A stretch of DNA of 64,000 nt from Streptomyces globisporus. GTDB lineage: Bacteria > Actinomycetota > Actinomycetes > Streptomycetales > Streptomycetaceae. The DNA lies in the NCBI GenBank assembly GCA_014649555.1, contig BMTG01000007.1, positions 186,001 through 250,000 of the forward strand, given 5' to 3'. The position numbers and the translations under genes were made by a program. A model generated the notes under the pieces. It was not told where the DNA came from and ran no database searches. It saw only the letters and a program-made list of their open reading frames with translations. Positions 3,671 to 15,288 of the stretch are shown here, one piece after another (the first letter of the stretch is position 1; every line of letters begins with the position of its first letter).

Positions 3671-4570
3671 TCAGATCACGTGCGCGCCCGGCGCGGGCGA
3701 GGCCGCCACCCGCGTGTTGCGGCAGGTCCCGGACGTCAGCAGCGCGGCCGCCACCTTCTCGGCCGTCTCCGCGTCCGGCACGAGGAACGCGGTCGTCGGC
3801 CCGGAGCCGGAGACGAGCGCTGCGAGCGCCCCCGCTTCCGTGCCCGCCGCCAGCGTGTCCGCGAGGGACGGGCGCAGGGAGAGCGCGGCCGGCTGGAGGT
3901 CGTTGCTCAGGGCTCCCGCGAGTGCGCCGGAGTCGCCGGAGCGCAGGGCGGCCAGGAGGGCGGGGGACGCGGTCGGTCCGGGGACCTCGGTGTCGGCGGT
4001 GAGGCGGTCGAACTCGCCGTAGACGGCGGGCGTGGAGAGGCCCCCGTCCGCCACCGCGAAGACCCAGTGGAACGTGCCGCCGACCTCGATCGGGGTCAGC
4101 TTCTCACCGCGTCCCGTACCGAGCGCGGCCCCGCCCACCAGGCTGAACGGCACGTCGCTGCCCAGTTCGGCGCAGATGGCCAACAGCTCGTCGCGGCTCG
4201 CGCCCGTTCCCCACAGGGCGTCGCAGGCGACCAGGGCGGCCGCCCCGTCGGCGCTGCCGCCGGCCATGCCGCCCGCGACCGGGATGTCCTTGGCGATGTG
4301 CAGGTGGACGGCGGGGTCGATGCCGTACCGCTCGGCGAGCGCGAGGGCGGCCCGGGCGGCGAGGTTGGTGGTGTCCAGCGGGACCTGGGCGGCGTCCGGG
4401 CCCGAGCAGGTGATGCGCAGCTCGTCGGCGGGGGTCGCGGTGACCTCGTCGTACAGGCCGACGGCGAGGAAGACGTTGGCCAGGTCGTGGAAGCCGTCGG
4501 GGCGGGCGGCGCCCACCGCGAGCTGGACGTTGACCTTGGCGGGGACGCGGACGGTGACGGCGGCGGTCAT
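3671..4570 (-). CDS. ispE: 4-(cytidine 5'-diphospho)-2-C-methyl-D-erythritol kinase
   Basis: 299-aa GHMP-family kinase of the non-mevalonate (MEP) isoprenoid pathway. It phosphorylates CDP-methylerythritol on the 2-hydroxyl using ATP. The N-terminal AKVN places the catalytic Lys at residue 12. The glycine-rich GHMP loop [16 protein letters not shown] lies at about 97-112, and GSDVPF carries the probable catalytic Asp at 139. Length is normal for actinobacterial IspE. Its start codon overlaps the rsmA stop by four bases (ATGA), so the two are translationally coupled, the usual Streptomyces arrangement. MEP-pathway isoprenoids feed undecaprenyl and polyprenyl phosphates, the latter used by the mannosyltransferase encoded 10 kb away. 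Confidence 0.95.
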
Positions 4571-5439
4571 CCGGACACCTCCGGCTTGTGCTCCGCGATC
4601 GCCGCGAACTCCTCCACCGTCAGCGCCTCCCCGCGCGCCTGCGGCGAGATCCCGGCGGCGACGAGCGCGGCCTCGGCAGCGGGTGCGGAACCGGCCCAGC
4701 CGGACAGGGCGGCGCGCAGCGTCTTGCGGCGCTGGGCGAACGCCGCGTCCACCACCGCGAAGACCTCGGCGCGGGAGGCCTTCGTGGCGAGCGGCTCGGT
4801 GCGGCGGACGAGCGAGACGAGCCCGGAGTCGACGTTCGGGGCGGGCCAGAACACGTTGCGGCCGATCGCCCCGGCGCGCTTCACGTCCGCGTACCAGTTG
4901 GCCTTCACCGACGGCACGCCGTAGACCTTGTTGCCCGGGCGGGCGGCGAGGCGGTCGGCGACCTCGGCCTGGACCATGACGAGGGTCCGCTCGATGCTGG
5001 GGAAGCGCTCCAGCATGGTGAGCAGGACGGGCACGGCCACGTTGTACGGGAGGTTCGCGACGAGCGCGGTCGGCGCGGGGCCCGGCAGCTCGGTGACCAG
5101 CATCGCGTCGGAGTGGACGAGGGCGAAGCGGTCGGCGCGCTCCGGCATCCGGGCCTGGACCGTGGCGGGCAGCGCGGCCGCGAGCACGTCGTCGATCTCG
5201 ACGGCGATCACCCGGTCCGCCGCCTCCAGCAGCGCCAGGGTCAGCGAGCCGAGCCCGGGCCCCACCTCGACGACCACGTCGTCCGGGCGGACCTCGGCCG
5301 TGCGCACGATGCGGCGGACGGTGTTGGCGTCGATGACGAAGTTCTGACCGCGCTGCTTCGTGGGGCGTACGCCCAGCGTCGCGGCCAGGTCGCGGATGTC
5401 TGCGGGCCCCAGGAGGGCGTCGGGCTCTGTGCTGCTCAC
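4567..5439 (-). CDS. rsmA: 16S rRNA (adenine1518-N6/adenine1519-N6)-dimethyltransferase RsmA (KsgA)
   Basis: 290-aa SAM-dependent methyltransferase that dimethylates two adjacent adenosines in the 3' hairpin of 16S rRNA during small-subunit maturation. Its absence gives kasugamycin resistance in other bacteria. Family motifs are clear: KQRGQNFV near residue 28, the SAM loop [11 protein letters not shown] at about 58-68, acidic VEIDD about 20 residues later, and the target-base motif NLPYNVA at about 128-134. The gene overlaps the upstream rpf by four bases and ispE by four bases, giving an rpf-rsmA-ispE operon. Start ATG at 5439. Confidence 0.96.
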
Positions 5440-6785
5440 CCGGTAAGCCTACGGCCGCAGTGGGGCCACGGACTCGCCCCCCGCTGCACGTACAGCTTCT
5501 TCGCCCGGAACGTCTGCTCGGCGGCGGGCGCGTCCTGGGGGCGTCCGCCGCCGCCGAGGGACTGCCAGGTCTGCGTGTCGAACTGGTACAGCCCGCCGTA
5601 CGTGCCGCTCGGGTCGACCGCGTCGGCGCGCCCGCCCGACTCGCAGGCGGCGAGCGCGGACCAGTTCAGCCCGTCCGCCCCGGCGACGGAGTCGGGCCGC
5701 TGCCGGGTGCCGGTGCGCACGACGCGGCTCTCCGGCAGGTGGACCAGCTCCTCGGCCGTCCGGCGCGGCTTCTGCCGGACGCCGTTGACGGTCCGGACCG
5801 CGTACGTGACCCGGCGTACGCCGTTGCGGCCCGCGCGCTCGATGACCTCGGTCCCCCGGAACAGCTCGGGATCCTCGCTGCGCTCGACGGCGTACGGGAC
5901 CGTCTCCTCGCGCACCTCGCGGGTGTCGGTGATGCGCATGACGGAGATCGTCTGGCCGTCGCGCGGGAAGCTCGCCGGGGCGACGGAGGTGGTGTCCTGG
6001 CCGTGCAGGGTGATGCCCGCCTCGGCGAGGGCCTCGTGGACGGTGGCGGCGTTGGTGCGCAGGGTGCGTTCCTGGCCGTCGGCCATGAAGGTCACGGCGC
6101 GTTCGGTGCGGACGGTGAGCGTCAGGCCGGTGCGGGCGATCCGGGTGGAGCGGGCGGCGGAGAGGTGCGCCCCCTCGGCCCGGATCCCGAACTCGCGCAG
6201 CGCCCCGGCCACCGTGTCGGCGGTGGTCCAGATCCGGTGGCGGACGCCGTCGAGGGTGAGGGTGACGGGCCGCCCGTACCGGACGACGACCTCGTCGCCG
6301 TGGTCGAGGCCGGCGCCGGGGTCCGGGGAGACGCGGTCGTGCGCGCCGACGGTGACGCCTTCCTCCTCCAGCAGCTCGGTGACGTCGTCGGCGAAGGTGT
6401 GCAGGGTCCGGGGTGAGCCGTCGACCTCCAGCCGGACGGCCTTGTCGTGGGCGACGAACGCGGTGGTGCCGCCGGCCAGGAACGCGACGACCAGGGCCCG
6501 GGGGACGAGCCGGCTCAGCTTCAGGTTCTCGGGGTCGACGATTACGCGTCTCCGGCGGCGCTTGGCGGCCCGCCGGGCGTCGGCGCGAGTGGAGCCCTGC
6601 CGGGGCACCGCGGTGGGCTGCGGCGGGCCGTCGGGCGCGGTGTCGACGAGCGGGGCGTCGACGAGCGGGACGTCGACCATGGTCGGGGCGTGCGCGGCGG
6701 GGCGCGTCCACATCCCGTCGGCCAGCGTCAGCTGCTCATGGAACGCGTCGAGACGCCTGTCCTGCGAAGTGTTCACGCCGTTCAC
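5436..6785 (-). CDS. Resuscitation-promoting factor (DUF348-G5-transglycosylase)
   Basis: 449-aa cell-wall-active protein. After an Arg/Lys-rich cytoplasmic N-terminus there is one signal-anchor segment at about 95-115. Three DUF348 (ubiquitin-like) repeats, a G5 domain and a C-terminal Rpf lysozyme-like domain follow. The Rpf domain contains ACESGG with the catalytic Glu, then YGGLYQFD, and ends with a Cys that probably pairs with the first. This is the RpfB-type architecture. It cleaves peptidoglycan glycan strands to help germination or regrowth; from memory, the S. coelicolor gene next to rsmA is called RpfE, which I have not checked. Starts are GTG: the one used here (6785) or GTG 9 bases downstream. 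First gene of the rpf-rsmA-ispE operon; the 107 bases upstream should carry the promoter. Confidence 0.92.
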
Positions 6786-6892
6786 GCCGCTCCTGAAGAT
6801 CCGCCCGCTGCCGCCCCGTCGTGGCCGGGGACGATAGCGGAGCAGCGGTGACTCTCCAAAGCCACACAGCTACAGAGCGTGTCCGACTGCGG

Positions 6893-7759
6893 TCAGAAGT
6901 CGAACGCCCGCGCCGTGTTGTCGTAGATCGCGGCGGCCAGCACGTCCTCCTCCAGCCCCTTCACCTCGGCCATCGCGCGGAGCGTGACGGGGATGAGGTA
7001 GGGCGCGTTGGGCCGTCCGCGATACGGCGCGGGAGTGAGGAAGGGGGCGTCCGTCTCGACGAGGACCAGTTCGGCCGGGGCGACGGCGAGGGCGTCTCGC
7101 AGCGGCTGGGCGTTCTTGAAGGTCACGTTGCCCGCGAAGGACATGAAGTACCCGGCCCGCGCGCAGATCCGGGCCATGTCCGCGTCGCCGGAGTAGCAGT
7201 GGAACACCGTCCGCTCGGGCGCGCCCGCGTCCGCCAGCACCCGCAGGACGTCCGCGTGCGCGTCGCGGTCGTGGATGACAAGTGCCTTGCCGTGCCGCTT
7301 GGCGATCTCGATGTGGGCCCGGAAGGACTCCTCCTGGGCGGCGACGCCCTCGGGGCCCGTACGGAAGAAGTCCAGGCCCGTCTCGCCGACCCCGCGTACG
7401 TGGTCGAGGGCGGCCAGCGCGTCGATCTCCGCGAGCGCCTCGTCCAGCGCCGCCTTGCCGCCGGGCTCCCGTGCCCCCTGCCGCGCGGTGCCGTCCGGAT
7501 CGCCGTGGACGATGCGCGGGGCCTCGTTGGGGTGCAGGGCGACCGAGGCGTGGACGGCGGGGTGGGCCGCCGCGGTCTCGGCGGCCCAGCGGGAGCCGGC
7601 CACGTCGCAGCCCACCTGGACGACGGTGGTCACGTTCACCGCGGCGGCCCGGGCGAGGGCCTCCTCGACGGTGGCGTCCTGCATGTCCAGGTGGGTGTGG
7701 GAGTCGGCGACCGGAACCCGCAGGGGCTCGGGCAGCGGCGGGGCTTCGGTACGGCTCAT
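6893..7759 (-). CDS. TatD family metal-dependent hydrolase (DNase)
   Basis: 288-aa TIM-barrel hydrolase. Metal-binding motifs are DSHTHLD (HxH at 21 and 23), a Glu in VRGVGETGLD, FHCYSG, and the ETDAPFLTP motif near the C-terminus, matching TatD 3'-5' DNases and amidohydrolase-like deoxyribonucleases. A longer frame runs upstream to 8014, but it crosses the neighbouring gene. The ATG at 7759 begins right before the conserved domain, so that start is used. Unusually, the start codon is the last element of a perfect 19-bp hairpin (7758-7803) and no Shine-Dalgarno is visible outside it, so initiation may be structure-controlled or leaderless. Confidence 0.92.
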   Translation of the reverse strand: MSRTEAPPLPEPLRVPVADSHTHLDMQDATVEEALARAAAVNVTTVVQVGCDVAGSRWAAETAAAHPAVHASVALHPNEAPRIVHGDPDGTARQGAREPGGKAALDEALAEIDALAALDHVRGVGETGLDFFRTGPEGVAAQEESFRAHIEIAKRHGKALVIHDRDAHADVLRVLADAGAPERTVFHCYSGDADMARICARAGYFMSFAGNVTFKNAQPLRDALAVAPAELVLVETDAPFLTPAPYRGRPNAPYLIPVTLRAMAEVKGLEEDVLAAAIYDNTARAFDF

Positions 7760-7803
7760 GCCGACGATCGTACGAGGGCCCGGCCTCGTACGATCGTCGG
7801 CAT
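7758..7803 (-). promoter_or_regulatory. Perfect 19-bp hairpin abutting the tatD start codon
   Basis: Inverted repeat with 19-base identical arms at 7758-7776 and 7785-7803 and an 8-base G/C loop. In the minus-strand transcript it lies between the zinc-ribbon gene (stop at 7821) and tatD, and its 3' arm ends inside the tatD ATG. It could terminate the upstream transcript, occlude tatD translation, or act as an operator. The outer arms (ATGCCGACGATCGTACGAG) are richer in A/T than the surroundings. Confidence 0.7.
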
Positions 7804-7820
7804 CCGGCCCGCCGGCACCG

Positions 7821-8192
7821 TCACCTGCGGTGGAACGGGTGCAGCAGGTCGGACAGCCGCCAGTGCCGGTCCGGCGTGGCGGCGGTCGAGACCGTACGGT
7901 CCTTCGCGCCGCTCTCCGAGGCCTGCGGCGTCTGCTGCTTCCGCAGCAGCTCCTGGACGCCCGCGACCCGCCCCGCCCGCATGATGCGCACCACATGTCC
8001 GCCGCAGTTGCCACAGGTGGGCGTGGAGAGCGGCGACGGCACCCGCTCCCCGTCCGCCGTGTAGACGACGAACGCGTGGCCGTCCACGTCGACGTGGTGC
8101 TCTATCTCGTAGGACTGCTCCCAGCCGTACCCGCACTTCATGCAGGCGAAGGCGTACGCCTCATGGACAGTGGTCGCTGCGATCTCGCTCAT
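7821..8192 (-). CDS. Small zinc-ribbon protein of unknown function
   Basis: 123-aa soluble protein with two CxxC pairs: CMKC near residue 17 and CGNC near residue 71. The pairs flank a beta-rich stretch (YEIEHHVDVDGHAFVVY) and so form a likely treble-clef or zinc-ribbon. The C-terminal half is polar and ends LLHPFHRR. I do not recognise a named family; conserved hypothetical zinc-ribbon proteins of this size are common in Streptomyces. The ATG at 8192 is chosen because the conserved-looking sequence starts there; the frame stays open upstream to 8534 but in low-complexity Arg/Gly text. It lies upstream of tatD on the same strand, separated by the 19-bp hairpin. Confidence 0.7.
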   Translation of the reverse strand: MSEIAATTVHEAYAFACMKCGYGWEQSYEIEHHVDVDGHAFVVYTADGERVPSPLSTPTCGNCGGHVVRIMRAGRVAGVQELLRKQQTPQASESGAKDRTVSTAATPDRHWRLSDLLHPFHRR

Positions 8193-8643: not shown

Positions 8644-8820
8644 ATGTTCACCACGGACACCACTGCCACCGACATCGAGCTCGACCTCGACGCCGCTCTC
8701 AACCCCGGTGAGGTCGAAGGTCTGTACCGCGACTCCCGCGAGTGCGCCTACCTGGCGCTCCTCGCAGGCGGCGGAGCCCTGCTGCTCTCGCCTCCGACCC
8801 CGCGCCCGAAGAAGGGCTAG
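8644..8820 (+). CDS. 58-aa putative precursor or signalling peptide
   Basis: A GGACGGGG ribosome-binding site precedes the ATG. The peptide has an acidic N-terminal half (DTTATDIELDLDAALNP, five Asp and one Glu by residue 16), a single Cys at 34, a short hydrophobic run YLALLAGGGALLLS at 36-49 and a basic Pro-rich tail PPTPRPKKG. This polarity, acidic leader then compact hydrophobic core, is typical of RiPP precursors, and the GGG could be a processing site. It is the first gene of a tight operon with three proteins of unknown function and a serine hydrolase, which supports it being the substrate of the system. I do not recognise the family. Alternatives are a small membrane-active peptide or a quorum signal. 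Confidence 0.6.
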   Translation: MFTTDTTATDIELDLDAALNPGEVEGLYRDSRECAYLALLAGGGALLLSPPTPRPKKG

Positions 8821-8830
8821 TCGCCGGCAC

Positions 8831-9538
8831 ATGGACCAGAAACATGCTTCGTCGCCCCTGGCGGGTGCCGTGCATGACCTGGCAACAGAGGTGGTCCTCG
8901 CTCTTCGGAGCGGGGACCACCTCGCCACGGTGTGCGGCGCTGCGGGAATCGACGAGGAGAATCGGACCGGAATCGCGGCGGTACGGGTCATCGGGGCCGA
9001 CCTGCTGCTGCCGAGTGTTCTGTACGGACGCCATCCGCATCCGGGTGATGTCGCCGTACTCGACCGGGCGGTGCGGGAATTCCCGCCCAAGCCCGATGCT
9101 CCGGCCGCCACGGCCTGGAGCCACTGGCACATGATCTCCACGCTCCAGCGCATGGCGCCGCCCGCACCGGGAGCCACCGCGCCCGGCACGTATGCGGAGC
9201 CGGACGCCGCCTGGCTGGAGGAGGCCCCCTGGCAGGCGTTCACCCACCAGCTCTCGGTCCTCGCGCCGCTCGCCGTCCCGGCCGCCCCCTCGGCGGTGCA
9301 GCGGGCCGCGGCGAACCGGGCCGTCGACCTGTCGCGCGGCTTCGTCCGCGCGGTGCGGCGGCGCGACTGGCTCCAGGCGGCGGGCGCCGGCCGCTGGCTC
9401 GCGGCGACCGGCGGCGAACCGGCCACCCTGGGCCTGGACCGCGGCCTGGACTTCGTCGAGCTGATGGGCGGGCACGACCCCCGGGTGACCCTCCATGTGC
9501 GGGCCGCCCGGCTGATGGCCGAGGCGAGGGCCCGGTGA
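8831..9538 (+). CDS. Unrecognised 235-aa protein of the peptide cassette
   Basis: Begins ATG ten bases after the peptide gene and overlaps the next gene by four bases (GTGA), so it is translationally coupled. No membrane segment, signal peptide or cofactor-binding motif is visible. It is Ala/Arg/Leu/Trp-rich and helical. Notable spots are TAWSHWHMIS near residue 95, QAFTHQLSVLAP near 135, a VDLSRGFVRAVRRRDW stretch near 175 and VELMGGHDPRVTLHVRAAR close to the end. It is not obviously homologous to the next two proteins, although its size and placement suggest a partner subunit or adaptor. No function assigned. Confidence 0.75.
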   Translation: MDQKHASSPLAGAVHDLATEVVLALRSGDHLATVCGAAGIDEENRTGIAAVRVIGADLLLPSVLYGRHPHPGDVAVLDRAVREFPPKPDAPAATAWSHWHMISTLQRMAPPAPGATAPGTYAEPDAAWLEEAPWQAFTHQLSVLAPLAVPAAPSAVQRAAANRAVDLSRGFVRAVRRRDWLQAAGAGRWLAATGGEPATLGLDRGLDFVELMGGHDPRVTLHVRAARLMAEARAR

Positions 9539-10593
9539 CGACGACCGCGACCCAGGACCCGCAGGGCCGCCCCGGGGCCGGGGCGGACCCTGAGGGCCGC
9601 CGGAGCTGGGAACGCGCGCCCGGGGCCGCACTCGCCGTCCTCCCCGGCGTCCTGAGCTCCGCCCTCGCCTGGACCGACGCGCACCGCACCCGCTTCGCGC
9701 TCCCTGACGACGTCCTGGAACCCCACACCCAGGTCAACGCCACGCTGAAGCCGCTGGGCGAGCTGGCCCAGCTCGGCTCGACGATCCGCCGCACGACCGC
9801 CCCCGGCACCCCCGAGCACGAACGGGCCGGGGACCTCGTCGCGTACGCCTGGGAGCAGGTGCACGAGGGCGCCCTGCTCCTGGAGCTGCTGCGCGCGGAG
9901 CCGTTCGCCGCGTACCCGTACGAGATCTACGCCGCCTTCGCCGGGTACGGGCTGCGCCACGAGGGCTTCGAGGCGCTGGCCCGCCCGCTCACCGCGACCC
10001 GCGCCTGGGCCCACACCGAGCAGCACGCCAACCGCCAGCTGGGGCTGATCAACTCCGAGCGGCGGGTGGGGGTGGTGACCCATACGGACGCGGGCGGGGT
10101 GCTGTCCCGGACCTGGCTGGGCGGTCTGTCCGAGCCGTGGATGTTCGAGGGCCCCTCCGGCTACGCGCTGACCCACACCGTCTTCCACCTCACGGACTGG
10201 GGCCGGATGCCCGACCGGGTGCCGGAGAAGATCGACGGCTATCTGCGGACCTGGCTGCCCGCGTGGGCGGACGGCTGTCTGGAGAGCGGCCAGTGGGACC
10301 TGACCGGCGAGCTGCTGGCGGTGGCCGCGTCGCTGCCGGGCCCGGCTCCCGCGGAGCTGCTGGACGCGGTCTGGCCGGTGCTGGCCGACGTCCAGCACCC
10401 GACCGGCTGCGTCCCGGAGACCGGTGTGCCGGTCCAGGACCCCGCGCCGGACCCGTACCCCTTCATCGACTGCTACCACTCCACGCTCGTGACGGCCTTC
10501 GCCGCGGCCCTGTCCCTGAGGTCGCTGCGCGGCAACGGCGAGCGGGGCGAGACCGGCGGGGCCGCGCCCGGCCGGGAAAGGCACACCCCATGA
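9535..10593 (+). CDS. Cassette protein of unknown function, paralogue 1 (352 aa)
   Basis: GTG start overlapping the previous stop. It is clearly related to the next gene: shared blocks are LKPLGELAQLGSTI versus FKPLGELALIGKVI, LGLINSERRVGV versus LGLSAIERRFGV, EPWMFEGPSGYALTHTVFHL versus the matching block, WDLTGELLAVAASLPGP versus WDLLGELLVVDACLPEP, and a C-terminal CYHSTLVTAFAAAL. The shared THTVFHLTDWG (His-x3-His-x3-Asp) and the Tyr-His near the end could form a metal or catalytic site. I recall a Streptomyces family of this type under a DUF number (DUF6895) but could not check. No lanthipeptide, YcaO, radical-SAM or RRE motif is visible. Soluble. Confidence 0.78.
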   Translation: MTTTATQDPQGRPGAGADPEGRRSWERAPGAALAVLPGVLSSALAWTDAHRTRFALPDDVLEPHTQVNATLKPLGELAQLGSTIRRTTAPGTPEHERAGDLVAYAWEQVHEGALLLELLRAEPFAAYPYEIYAAFAGYGLRHEGFEALARPLTATRAWAHTEQHANRQLGLINSERRVGVVTHTDAGGVLSRTWLGGLSEPWMFEGPSGYALTHTVFHLTDWGRMPDRVPEKIDGYLRTWLPAWADGCLESGQWDLTGELLAVAASLPGPAPAELLDAVWPVLADVQHPTGCVPETGVPVQDPAPDPYPFIDCYHSTLVTAFAAALSLRSLRGNGERGETGGAAPGRERHTP

Positions 10594-11519
10594 GCAGCGG
10601 CATCCAGCAGATCCACGACGTCGGGGCGAAGGCCCTGGGCTGGCTGTACGAACACCGCGAGGGCTTCCGGCTGGAGGCGGACCCGTCCCCGGACGCGGGG
10701 ATGCTGGACCGGTTCAAGCCGCTGGGCGAGCTGGCGCTGATCGGGAAGGTCATCTTCCGCGAGGGGGTGGCCGGCTCGCAGCAGTCCTCCCTCGCCCACA
10801 AGCTGCTGGACCACGCCTGGCACGAGCTGCTGGACTCGGGGGCGCGGCTGCTGGAGGGCCAGCGGCGCGAACCGCTGTCGCCGGTGCCGCTTGAGGTCTA
10901 CGTACCGTTCCGGGAGCTGGGCTACCGGCAGCCGGACCTGGAGTCCGCGATCCGGCTCAACCACCGCCTGGCCAGCTGGGCGGCGCTGGAGGTGCTGCCG
11001 GTGCGGCGGCTCGGCCTCAGCGCCATCGAGCGGCGGTTCGGGGTGGAGCCGAGCGTTCCGGAGACGGCGGCGCTGGCCCACACCTGGCTGGCACGGCGGC
11101 CCGAGCCGTGGACGGTCGAGGGCCATATCGGTTACGACATCACGCACACGGTCTTCCACCTCACCGACTGGGGCGAGAAACCGGCCGGGCTGCCCGCCGA
11201 CATCGCGGAGTACCTGGCCCTCTGGCTGCCGGTCTGGCTGGACGACTGGCTGGACCTGAAGCGCTGGGACCTGCTGGGCGAGCTGCTGGTGGTCGACGCC
11301 TGTCTGCCGGAACCGACCCTGGACCCGGCGGCCTGGGCCGGGTTCGCCCAGGCCCAGGAGCCGGACGGGGCGATGCCGGTGGTCGGCGGGATGCCGGAGG
11401 GGAACGAGGAGTCGGTGTTCGATCTCGTCTACCACCCGACGCTGGTCGCCGCGTTCGCCTCGGCGCTGGCGATGTCCCGCGCCCTGTCCGACCTGTCCGC
11501 TTCCCCGGCCCCGGCATGA
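10590..11519 (+). CDS. Cassette protein of unknown function, paralogue 2 (309 aa)
   Basis: ATG at 10590 overlaps the preceding stop by four bases (ATGA). It lacks the extra N-terminal 35-40 residues of its neighbour but is otherwise collinear with it. It has the same core: PEPWTVEGHIGYDITHTVFH, LTDWG, a WLPVWLDDWLDLKRWDLLGE block and a final VYHPTLVAAFASALAMS. Two diverged copies in tandem suggest a heterodimer or two consecutive steps on the same substrate. The stop codon overlaps the serine hydrolase start. Function unknown; family link as for the preceding gene. Confidence 0.78.
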   Translation: MSSGIQQIHDVGAKALGWLYEHREGFRLEADPSPDAGMLDRFKPLGELALIGKVIFREGVAGSQQSSLAHKLLDHAWHELLDSGARLLEGQRREPLSPVPLEVYVPFRELGYRQPDLESAIRLNHRLASWAALEVLPVRRLGLSAIERRFGVEPSVPETAALAHTWLARRPEPWTVEGHIGYDITHTVFHLTDWGEKPAGLPADIAEYLALWLPVWLDDWLDLKRWDLLGELLVVDACLPEPTLDPAAWAGFAQAQEPDGAMPVVGGMPEGNEESVFDLVYHPTLVAAFASALAMSRALSDLSASPAPA

Positions 11520-12571
11520 CCGAGATGACGGCGGCCCCCGTGACCGTCCCTGGAACTCCGGCCACCGCCCGCCTCCTGGCCGAGGCCGCGCGGGCCGTCG
11601 ACGCGCCCGACCTGGTGCTCGCGGTCAGCCGGAACGGGGTGCGCACGGTCCACACCGGCGGGAGCGCGGAGCCGGGCCCGGTGCCCCGCGAGCTGATGGC
11701 GTACGAGCTGGGCTCGGCGTCGAAGCCGTACGCGGGGCTGCTGCTGGCCCGGCTGGTGGCCCAGGGCCGGGTGCGGTACGAGGACCGGGCGGCGGACCTG
11801 CTGGCCCCGGGCTTCCCGGTGCACCCGGCGGTACGCCGGATCACCCTGCGCCATCTGCTCACCCACACCTCGGGGCTGCCGGGCCTGCCCGCCGACTTCT
11901 ACCCGCAGGCGGTGCCCCGCTGGTCGACCGACCCGTACGGCGGCTACCCGGCCGACCGGGTGGTCCGCGCCTTCCTGCGGGCCCGCCCGCGCCACCGGCC
12001 CGGTACCCGCTGGCACTACTCGAACTTCGCCGTCTCGGTGCTCGGCCACACCCTGGCGGCGGCCACCGGGACCCCGTGGGAGGTCCTGCTGCACCAGCAG
12101 GTGCTGGCCCCGCTGGGCCTGGACGCGACCCGGGTGCGCCCGGGCCCCGACGGCACGGACGCGGTGGGCCACCGCCGCGACGGCGCGCCGGTGCCCGCGC
12201 TGGACACCGGGGGCTTCACGGCGGCGGGCGCGGTCCGGGCGACCCCGCTGGACCTGCTGACGTTCCTGGAGGCGCATGTGGACGGGCCGGATCCCCTGGA
12301 CCCGACGCTGAACGCCGCGTTCACCGACGTGTGCCGCCCCCTGCTGCGGCGGGGCCTGCGCCACACGCACACCCACACGCTGACGTGGTTCCAGCACCCG
12401 ACCCCGTACGGCCCGGTCCTCTTCCACGCGGGAGCGACCCTCGGGCAGCAAGCGTTCCTCGGGTTCCGCCCCGGGACGGGTCTGGCGGTGGCGGCGACGG
12501 CGACGCGGCGGGTGCACCGGGCGGACACGTTCGTGGCGACGGCGTACGGCTTGCTGACGGAAACGCCGTAG
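11516..12571 (+). CDS. Serine hydrolase, class C beta-lactamase/DD-peptidase fold
   Basis: 351 aa. The SxxK motif is SASK at 67-70, the tyrosine motif YSN at 168-170, and the third motif is HAG at 304-306 in place of KTG, as in many EstB-like esterases and D-aminopeptidases. The LRHLLTHTSGLP signature of the family lies at about 111-122. There is no signal peptide, so it acts in the cytoplasm, unlike true beta-lactamases. A run of alternating His and Thr (HTHTHT) occurs near 283-288. It is the last gene of the five-gene cassette, with an ATGA overlap with paralogue 2. In that setting a peptidase, esterase or transpeptidase acting on the 58-aa peptide is plausible but is inference. Confidence 0.85.
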   Translation: MTEMTAAPVTVPGTPATARLLAEAARAVDAPDLVLAVSRNGVRTVHTGGSAEPGPVPRELMAYELGSASKPYAGLLLARLVAQGRVRYEDRAADLLAPGFPVHPAVRRITLRHLLTHTSGLPGLPADFYPQAVPRWSTDPYGGYPADRVVRAFLRARPRHRPGTRWHYSNFAVSVLGHTLAAATGTPWEVLLHQQVLAPLGLDATRVRPGPDGTDAVGHRRDGAPVPALDTGGFTAAGAVRATPLDLLTFLEAHVDGPDPLDPTLNAAFTDVCRPLLRRGLRHTHTHTLTWFQHPTPYGPVLFHAGATLGQQAFLGFRPGTGLAVAATATRRVHRADTFVATAYGLLTETP

Positions 12572-12580
12572 GTGCCGTAG

Positions 12581-13465
12581 TTACTGGGGCTTCCCCGCGC
12601 TCTTCTCCGCGTTCTTGGCGGCGACGACCGCGTCGAACACCTCGCGCTTCGGCAGCCCGGCATCGGCGGCGACGGCGGCGATGGCCTCCTTGCGCCGCTC
12701 CCCCGCCTCCTCGCGCACCCGTACGCGCCGCACCAGCTCGTCGGCGTCCAGGTCCCCGGGGCCGGAATCCGCCGCCCCCTCCACCACGACGGTGATCTCG
12801 CCGCGCACCCCGTCGGCGGCCCAGACGGCCAGCTCGCCGAGGGGACCGCGCTTGACCTCCTCGTACGTCTTGGTCAGCTCGCGGCAGACGGCGGCGCGGC
12901 GCTCGGCGCCGAAGACCTCGGCCATGGCGGCGAGGGTGTCGTCGAGCCGGTGGGGGGCCTCGAAGAAGACCATGGTGCGCCGCTCGTCGGCGTTCTCGCG
13001 GAGCCGGGAGAGCCGTTCACCGGCCTTGCGCGGCAGAAACCCCTCGAAACAGAACCGGTCGACGGGCAGCCCGGAGAGAGCGAGGGCGGTCAGCACCGCA
13101 CTGGGCCCCGGCACGGCGGTGACACGGATGTCCTTCTCCACAGCGGCGGCGACGAGCCGATACCCCGGGTCGGAGACGGACGGCATCCCGGCATCCGTGA
13201 CCAGAAGCACCCGGGCCCCGCCGCTCAGCGCCTCGACCAGTTCGGGCGTCCGGGCGGACTCGTTCCCCTCGAAGTAGGAGACGACACGCCCCGAGGTGTG
13301 GATGCCGAGCGCCTGGGTGAGCCGGCGCAACCGCCGGGTGTCCTCGGCGGCGACGACGTCGGCCCGTTCCAGTTCGGCGGCGAGGCGGGGCGGGGCGTCC
13401 GCCACATCGCCGATGGGGGTCCCTGCGAGCACGAGCGTTCCAGTCGTTCCAGTCACATCAGCCAT
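12581..13465 (-). CDS. rsmI: 16S rRNA (cytidine1402-2'-O)-methyltransferase
   Basis: 294-aa tetrapyrrole-methylase-fold enzyme that 2'-O-methylates C1402 of 16S rRNA. Motifs are LVLAGTPIGDVADAPPR at the N-terminus, AEDTRRLRRL, SYFEGNE, LVTDAGMPSVSDPGYRLV, the VPGPSAVLTALALSGLP block, FEGFLPRKAGER and FFEAPHRL. The frame stays open upstream to 13534 but the conserved N-terminus begins at the ATG at 13465, and using it leaves room for a divergent promoter with pmt. Convergent with the serine hydrolase, only nine bases between the stops. Confidence 0.95.
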   Translation of the reverse strand: MADVTGTTGTLVLAGTPIGDVADAPPRLAAELERADVVAAEDTRRLRRLTQALGIHTSGRVVSYFEGNESARTPELVEALSGGARVLLVTDAGMPSVSDPGYRLVAAAVEKDIRVTAVPGPSAVLTALALSGLPVDRFCFEGFLPRKAGERLSRLRENADERRTMVFFEAPHRLDDTLAAMAEVFGAERRAAVCRELTKTYEEVKRGPLGELAVWAADGVRGEITVVVEGAADSGPGDLDADELVRRVRVREEAGERRKEAIAAVAADAGLPKREVFDAVVAAKNAEKSAGKPQ

Positions 13466-13518
13466 CCTCGCAGCACGGGCAGCACCCTTCGCACAGATGC
13501 GTTCCCTACGATGGCGCG

Positions 13519-15288
13519 GTGACGAGTACCGCACCCGAGACCCAGCGGGGCCACGACGCCGGGGACCCGCTCGGCGAACAGCCGACCTCCTGGCAACGGC
13601 GGCTGCGCCGCTTCGGCCATGTCCCCCGCCCGGAGACCTCGCTCCGCGACCGGCTGGACCCGCCGTACACGCGGCCCGGCCGGCAGGTGTGGTCGGTGCT
13701 CGCGATCCCGCCGCACGTGGCGGACCGCCTGGTGCGCTGGTCCGGCTGGGGCGGCCCGCTGCTCGTGACGCTCGTCGCGGGCCTGCTGCGCTTCTGGAAG
13801 CTGGACCAGCCGCACGCGGTGATATTCGACGAGACGTACTACGCGAAGGACGCGTGGGCGCTGGTCAACCAGGGGTACGAGGGATCGTGGCCGAAGGACG
13901 TCGACAAGCAGATCCTCAACGACCCCTCGTCCGTCCCGATCCCGACCGACCCGGGTTATGTGGTGCACCCGCCGGTCGGCAAGTGGATCATCGGCTTCGG
14001 CGAGCAGCTGTTCGGCTTCACGCCGTTCGGCTGGCGGTTCATGGTGGCGGTGCTGGGCACGATCTCCGTCCTCCTCCTGTGCCGGATCGGCCGGCGCCTC
14101 TTCCGCTCGACGTTCCTGGGCTGCCTGGCGGGCCTGCTGCTCGCGGTGGACGGCCTGCACTTCGTGATGAGCCGGACCGCGCTGCTGGACCTGATCGTCA
14201 TGTTCTTCGTGCTGGCGGCATTCGGCTGCCTGGTGGTGGACCGGGACCACGCCCGCCGCAGACTGGCGGCCGCGCTACCGGTGGACGAGGAGGGCGTACT
14301 GCGCCCGAACGCCCGAGTGGCAGAGACTCTGCGCCTCGGCTGGCGGCCGTGGCGTCTCGCGGCGGGCGTGATGCTGGGCCTGGCGTTCGCGACGAAGTGG
14401 AACGGCCTGTACGTGCTGGCCGCGTTCGGCCTGATGACGGTGTTGTGGGACGTCGGGGCGCGGCGCACGGCAGGCGCGGTGCACCCGTACCAGGCGGTGC
14501 TGCGCCGCGACCTGATCCCCGCGTTCGTCTCCACGGTGCCGGTGGCGATCGTCACGTACATCGTGTCCTGGACCGGCTGGATCGTCACGGACAAGGGCTA
14601 CTACCGCAACTGGGCGGCCACCGAGGGCAAGGACTCCTCCTGGAGCTGGCTGTTCCCGGACTGGCTGCGCAGCCTGTGGCACTACGAGAACCAGGTGTAC
14701 GACTTCCATGTCGGCCTCACCTCGGGCCACACGTACGAGTCCAACCCCTGGAGCTGGCTGGTGCTCGGCCGCCCCGTCTCGTACTTCTACGAGGAGCAGA
14801 CGGGCTGCACGCAGTCGTCCACGGGCAAGTGCGCCGCCGAGGTCCTGGCCATCGGCACCCCGCTCCTGTGGTGGCTGGCGTGCTTCGCCCTCGCGTACGT
14901 GGTGTGGCGCTGGTTCTTCCGCCGCGACTGGCGGGCCGGCGCGATCGCCTGCGGCGTGGTGGCGGGCTGGCTCCCCTGGTTCTTCTACCAGGAGCGGACG
15001 ATCTTCCTCTTCTACGCGGTGGTGTTCGTCCCGTTCCTCTGCCTGGCGGTCACGATGATGCTGGGCGCGATCGCCGGCCCAGCGGCAGGCACGGGCGCCC
15101 GAGCCGAGCTGGGCCTCACCACGGACGACCCCACCGGCGAACGCCGCCGCACCCTGGGGGCGATCGCGGTGGGCGTGCTGGTGCTCCTGATCATCTGGAA
15201 CTTCATCTACTTCTGGCCGCTGTACACCGGGACGCAGATCCCGGAGGACCTGTGGCGGGACCGGATGTGGCTGGACACGTGGGTGTAG
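13519..15288 (+). CDS. pmt: Protein O-mannosyltransferase (GT39)
   Basis: 589-aa polytopic membrane enzyme that transfers mannose from polyprenyl-phosphate-mannose to Ser/Thr of secreted proteins at the outer face of the membrane. The first extracytoplasmic loop carries FDETYYAKDAW with the catalytic Asp-Glu pair. About eleven membrane segments follow, and a C-terminal NFIYFWPLYTGTQIPEDLW block lies just before the stop. Streptomyces Pmt glycosylates lipoproteins and PstS and is required for phiC31-type phage adsorption and for beta-lactam tolerance. Start is GTG at 13519; the nearby ATG at 13511 is out of frame. Divergent from rsmI, 53 bases apart. A diverged copy of its last 27 codons occurs 2.7 kb downstream. 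Confidence 0.93.
   Translation: MTSTAPETQRGHDAGDPLGEQPTSWQRRLRRFGHVPRPETSLRDRLDPPYTRPGRQVWSVLAIPPHVADRLVRWSGWGGPLLVTLVAGLLRFWKLDQPHAVIFDETYYAKDAWALVNQGYEGSWPKDVDKQILNDPSSVPIPTDPGYVVHPPVGKWIIGFGEQLFGFTPFGWRFMVAVLGTISVLLLCRIGRRLFRSTFLGCLAGLLLAVDGLHFVMSRTALLDLIVMFFVLAAFGCLVVDRDHARRRLAAALPVDEEGVLRPNARVAETLRLGWRPWRLAAGVMLGLAFATKWNGLYVLAAFGLMTVLWDVGARRTAGAVHPYQAVLRRDLIPAFVSTVPVAIVTYIVSWTGWIVTDKGYYRNWAATEGKDSSWSWLFPDWLRSLWHYENQVYDFHVGLTSGHTYESNPWSWLVLGRPVSYFYEEQTGCTQSSTGKCAAEVLAIGTPLLWWLACFALAYVVWRWFFRRDWRAGAIACGVVAGWLPWFFYQERTIFLFYAVVFVPFLCLAVTMMLGAIAGPAAGTGARAELGLTTDDPTGERRRTLGAIAVGVLVLLIIWNFIYFWPLYTGTQIPEDLWRDRMWLDTWV

Follow-up and report, generated by a model that had tools for sequence, protein, structure and literature searches.

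The window analysed here, a stretch of 64,000 nucleotides from Streptomyces globisporus (contig BMTG01000007.1 of assembly GCA_014649555.1, positions 186,001 to 250,000 of the forward strand), carries at positions 8644-12571 a cassette of five genes, encoding a 58-residue peptide, a predicted helical protein (B), two paralogous DUF6895 proteins (C and D) and an S12-family serine hydrolase (E). The five genes very probably form a unit of the kind that produces ribosomally synthesized and post-translationally modified peptides (RiPPs), and the cassette follows RiPP logic while using an unfamiliar set of enzymes. We propose, with a probability of about 0.5, that it is the biosynthetic unit of an undescribed RiPP class, in which B would engage the leader of the peptide, the DUF6895 proteins would epimerize its core and E would cut before a Ser-Pro sequence. 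The five genes are as follows.

8644-8820, plus strand: putative precursor peptide, 58 residues with one Cys; acidic leader at about residues 1-27, conserved YRDSREC at 28-34, probable core A35-L48 (variable at 41-45) and probable follower S49-G58
8831-9538, plus strand: B, 235 residues, candidate leader-binding partner
9535-10593, plus strand: C, DUF6895 paralogue 1, 352 residues with a GTG start, candidate peptide epimerase
10590-11519, plus strand: D, DUF6895 paralogue 2, 309 residues, predicted alpha/alpha barrel, candidate peptide epimerase
11516-12571, plus strand: E, S12 (PF00144) serine hydrolase, 351 residues, with S67xxK70, Y168-S-N170 and H304-A-G306; candidate follower protease or cyclase

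The peptide gene lies 10 bases ahead of B, and the B/C, C/D and D/E junctions each overlap by 4 bases, in agreement with the tight coupling that a sequence-only reading of the window had described. With D as the query, genome contigs yielded 158 relatives; 80 loci were retained, and their titles name Streptomyces and one Streptantibioticus. The junction pattern recurs in these loci, as shown by a peptide-B gap of -1 to 37 bases in 75 of 79 loci and by the 4-base overlap retained at 64 of 71 C/D and 66 of 78 D/E junctions with placeable starts. B, C and E were present in all 80 loci and the peptide in 79, the exception (L034) being a locus that starts inside B at a contig end. These results indicate that peptide, paralogue pair and hydrolase are inherited together; the breakdown of co-occurrence that would have refuted the sequence-only reading was not encountered.

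In samples of Streptomyces genomes, 92 of 199 gave a DUF6895 match, 76 of 198 matched the profile of B and 60 of 198 that of the peptide, so that the canonical precursor is carried by about 30% of the sampled genomes. Each of the 61 peptide places adjoins B on its upstream side, 60 of them at no more than 47 bases and the remaining one, which is a second copy, at 404; with the 79 of 80 loci above, a small precursor gene linked to modifying enzymes, which is one mark of a RiPP system, is seen almost throughout. DUF6895 follows B within 206 bases at 74 of 76 B places, and the remaining two are in G776 (DUF6895 place not listed) and G612 (fragments of B and E only). The G612 fragments (L226, G612:C1:88500-91500), which are not accompanied by DUF6895, represent a decayed copy of the cassette. 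Sixteen genomes carried B and gave no canonical peptide match: a divergent precursor was recognized in 12, G612 is degenerate, G652 and G776 were left out, and in G661 a precursor was not seen beside B. In 19 further loci of the genus, B, DUF6895 and E were present in 19/19, and 18/19 showed a precursor, recognized either with the profile or by eye. Among 394 actinomycete genomes, 32 carried DUF6895.

The window cassette is inserted between tatD and rsmI-pmt, near rpf-, ksgA- and ispE-like genes, and the cassettes of the S. griseus group sit likewise between tatD and rsmI. The core neighbourhood is given below.

3671-8014: ispE-, ksgA-, rpf- and tatD-like genes
12581-15288: rsmI- and pmt-like genes

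Among the 80 relative loci, 20 have both tatD and rsmI as flanks and one (L006) has the rsmI side only because of a contig end, and in the other 59 all six flank genes are missing above 50% identity in the stretch examined. Conversely, at 30 tatD loci from 41 Streptomyces genomes, B lies beyond tatD in 3, the window's included, and rsmI lies there in 27. The mixed flanks, together with the cassette-free tatD-rsmI neighbourhoods, indicate that the five genes relocate together.

For the 58-residue peptide, no Pfam or NCBIfam match was obtained up to E 1. Among 73 distinct canonical precursors, P21, E23, R32, L47, L48, P50, P51, P53, R54, P55, K56 and K57 are invariant, Cys34 is retained in 72, and position 49 holds Ser in 64 and Ala in 9; the near-invariant follower reads LLLSPPTPRPKKG. 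The mean net charge of the leader is -6.3 (n = 73). When the S. griseus-type group was set apart, the ratio of nonsynonymous to synonymous polymorphism (pN/pS) in the other 57 rows was 1.12 for residues 2-14, 0.39 for 15-27, 0.24 for 28-35, 0.41 for 36-40, 0.97 for 41-45 and 0.09 for 46-58. In the 16 rows of S. griseus type the ranking was the same but less pronounced (41-45, 0.58; 46-58, 0.04). The segment 41-45 is thus variable between constrained flanks, which fits a leader, core and follower and agrees with the conserved recognition part and more variable core of RiPP precursors, although the N-terminal residues 2-14 vary as well. From its sequence the peptide looks like a RiPP precursor with an acidic leader, a variable segment and a near-invariant follower. 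In five loci (L029, L033, L047, L049 and L077), two tandem precursor genes with differing variable segments precede B.

In actinomycetes of another family and in some Streptomyces, a related arrangement comprises the peptide, B, a single DUF6895 gene and E. The precursors of these single-DUF6895 loci have an acidic leader, an aliphatic core (for example AVGVLLLLLLL) and a follower such as SPKEPKQK or SANPNDDPIED..QNLACARAF; their cores are Leu-rich and mostly end in Leu-Ser-Pro.

Both paralogues match Pfam DUF6895 (PF21836) far above its curated cut-off of 23.8 bits (C, E 7.9e-87, 291.7 bits; D, E 4.2e-85, 286 bits). They are 38% identical in pairwise alignment and share THTVFHLTDWG, as had been noted; the spacing given earlier, His-x3-His-x3-Asp, has to be corrected to His-x3-His-x2-Asp. 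The assignment overturns the description of the cassette as one without recognizable modifying enzymes, since DUF6895 is a family tied to RiPPs, and it likewise gives no alignment to a family of known, unrelated function. Pfam agreed with the earlier reading that LanB/LanM, YcaO, radical SAM, PqqD-type and transporter domains are missing from the five proteins. A DUF6895 protein is named a lasso-peptide epimerase in the title of Shi et al., ACS Catal 2026 (cited in PMC13352647); by that title, one member of the family to which C and D belong epimerizes a ribosomal peptide. The lasso B protein (PF13471) was not found beside DUF6895 in 20 DUF6895-bearing genomes, the window's included, in a search that did not extend to PF00733. 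It occurs in 13 of the 20, the nearest at 38 kb (G309), and is absent from 7; in the window genome it is on a different contig from the cassette. Therefore, the lasso context of the published DUF6895 enzyme was not encountered in these genomes. MslH, called metal-dependent in the title of PMC10406935, provides a further parallel, cofactor use apart, in that it epimerizes one residue of a lasso-peptide precursor before maturation.

In an alignment of 53 DUF6895 proteins, 24 of them from non-cassette contexts, His186 and Asp227 are conserved in all 53, Asp193 in 51 and His282 in 47. Positions 190 and 194 are His and Trp in the cassette-type proteins, and mostly Tyr/Phe and Phe, respectively, in other contexts. 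We presume that MslH is metallophosphatase-like and its fold therefore unrelated to DUF6895.

For protein B, described earlier as unrecognized, no Pfam or NCBIfam match was indeed obtained up to E 1. It is predicted to be all-helical, and its structural model has no strands. A conserved arginine-rich stretch at about residues 155-195 carries a net charge of +6. This stretch, together with the position of B beside DUF6895 in the genus sample, makes B most likely the leader binder. A PqqD-type domain, the mark of systems with a RiPP recognition element, was not found in the peptide or B by Pfam to E 1, nor in the strandless model of B; a divergent element is possible.

For hydrolase E, PF00144 matches residues 24-334 of 351 (E 6.8e-48), and the S12 motifs SxxK, YxN and HxG are present. 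Among 103 aligned E proteins, the catalytic residues S67, K70, Y168, N170, H304 and G306 are retained in 102, 102, 103, 96, 103 and 103, respectively, indicating that the motifs are intact. Its solved S12 relatives by sequence include class C beta-lactamases, D-Ala-D-Ala carboxypeptidase, alkaline D-peptidase and ClbP, the last of which cleaves after a D-residue. Several S12 members act on peptides with D-residues, and by analogy E is a candidate for the same. Assignment as a class C beta-lactamase (72.2 bits against an NCBIfam equivalog cut-off of 415) or as AmpH (80.2 bits against 266) was rejected. Thioesterases related to penicillin-binding proteins (PBPs), such as SurE, link an L-residue at the N terminus to a D-residue at the C terminus, which is D-Leu in the native SurE reaction (PMC11735501). 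SurE resembles E as a PBP-related serine hydrolase and in the reaction that we propose at Leu48, and differs in its non-ribosomal substrates and its lipocalin-like second domain. E was not assigned to the SurE kind, as its PF00144 match leaves no space for that domain.

The compiled relatives connect E with the follower. In all 25 E-containing relatives the precursor, by reading, runs past the hydrophobic stretch, and a Leu-Ser..Pro site is found in 21 of them. In L143, which has B and DUF6895 without E, the precursor terminates in ..CVPLIILP, and the same E-less pattern is seen in L173, where it terminates in ..SPQLIVP, though the contig extends only about 420 bases beyond DUF6895, a stretch resembling that of L143 by eye. 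The follower is thus lost or changed where E is missing, which suggests that E removes the follower and perhaps cyclizes the peptide; we consider follower cleavage by E somewhat better than an even prospect. In L136 and its near-twin L227, B forms the C-terminal part of a subtilase (PF00082) that adjoins DUF6895, and E was not found in either. The region L136:6902-10641, with L227, is a cyanobactin-like variant, in which a 670-residue protein upstream in L136 matches PatG domains (PF18065, PF18047 and PF00082). Cyanobactin PatG strips the follower and cyclizes (PMC10885120). The likeness to PatA/PatG lies in a serine protease that removes a follower and cyclizes, and in the PatG-type protein beside B/DUF6895 in L136, and the difference is the S12 hydrolase of the window cassette; neither S12 nor lactamase is mentioned in the text of that review.

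From these observations we propose the following pathway. The 58-residue peptide would be the precursor, and B would most likely bind its acidic leader through the arginine-rich stretch. C and D would invert the alpha-carbon of one or more Leu/Ala/Gly-rich core residues, an assignment favoured by the titled activity of the family and by an aliphatic core that offers little else to modify; the acid and base would probably be the invariant His of TH-x3-H-x2-D and other conserved Asp/His residues. We regard epimerization by C/D as the likelier chemistry by a fair margin of belief. E would then attack the Leu48-Ser49 bond ahead of Ser-Pro, at a D-residue, expelling the follower and leaving a linear peptide or a head-to-tail ring. 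The sequence-only reading, in which the paralogues act on the peptide and the hydrolase trims or cyclizes it, thus stands in part: strict co-occurrence, the evolution of leader, variable segment and follower, and the link between hydrolase and follower lend it strong, if indirect, support, and its premise of unrecognizable enzymes has fallen.

An extension of this proposal, which we hold only tentatively, is a RiPP class built on stereochemistry alone: DUF6895 would make D-residues, and an S12 transpeptidase would recognize D-Leu, expel the Ser-Pro follower and close the ring as a ribosomal counterpart of SurE, a role that PatG-type proteins would take over in a few rare relatives. For the poly-Leu cores, a series of inversions could yield a gramicidin-like D/L helix.

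The same cassette might instead be a RiPP system in which C and D run another reaction, such as dehydration or ring formation via Cys34 or Ser/Thr, with E a plain protease. The dehydratase-like, lyase and terpene-cyclase barrels among the fold neighbours of D are consistent with this, as is the near-universal Cys34; however, many single-DUF6895 precursors, among them those of L116, L117 and L127 with their almost entirely aliphatic cores, do without Cys34, and the sole reported DUF6895 activity is, by title, epimerization. We judge it possible, and clearly the less probable chemistry. A further reading, compatible with the chemistry proposed here and rather unlikely, is that the RiPP-like pathway makes an internal cofactor or signal and not an exported product. 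No transporter is encoded by the five genes, nor did the commonest neighbours of the 80 loci include a conserved, linked transporter, and the core flanks are strongly conserved; the variable segment, the tandem precursors and the patchy presence (60/198 genomes) fit secondary metabolism better. It is very improbable that the peptide is no substrate but a small structural or regulatory partner of a metabolic operon whose DUF6895 and E proteins have small molecules as substrates. Sugars or terpenes are frequent substrates of alpha/alpha barrels and esters of S12 hydrolases, but the segment-wise evolution of the peptide, the E-less loci whose precursors go no further than the core, and the radical SAM, LanC-like and PatG proteins that adjoin DUF6895 elsewhere all speak against this reading.

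Several observations weigh against the proposed epimerization and cleavage. The predicted alpha/alpha barrel is common to lyases, terpene cyclases and glycosidases as well as sugar epimerases, and the two DUF6895 copies of the Streptomyces cassettes lack an explanation. The exact Leu-Ser..Pro site is missing in four of the 25 E-containing relatives (L134, L155, L163 and L172). The E-less cases are few; one of them, L142, is ambiguous, its precursor terminating in ..PPAPADA, and the candidate precursor of L136/L227 is unlike the others. In addition, a leader protease or exporter linked to the cassette was not found.

A description of the five-gene cassette was not found in the literature searched, which did not cover subscription journals and supplements. 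If the proposal is correct, a RiPP class that is common in the most thoroughly mined antibiotic genus has gone unnoticed because the usual marker enzymes are missing. Such a class would provide a short, testable way of converting ribosomal L-peptides into peptides with D-residues, together with an S12 protease or cyclase.

DUF6895 might also serve as a mining bait, since it marks radical-SAM, LanC-like and PatG-type RiPP-like clusters. In five Streptomyces loci (L157-L160 and L162), two DUF6895 genes accompany an acidic peptide of 38-39 residues. In L158 the neighbours include two radical SAM proteins, a haem-oxygenase-like protein, an MFS transporter, a prolyl oligopeptidase and a protein whose matches to glycosyltransferases are weak and fall below cut-off; radical SAM was confirmed also in L157 and L159, and L135 and L144 have related peptides of 42 and 37 residues with radical SAM. 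The L158:2175-12708 type thus constitutes another RiPP-like cluster, with a core-like ..GCIINNSS.. in a peptide of 37-42 residues. L145 (410-10919) combines DUF6895 with a LanC-like/kinase protein, Cys-rich small open reading frames and a SPASM radical SAM protein in a lanthipeptide-like cluster, and L147 has a LanC protein like that of L145. In L174:3846-8921 and L175:3057-8225, DUF6895 lies between ABC transporter ATPase and O-methyltransferase genes, together with proteins that match no family (families scanned in L174).
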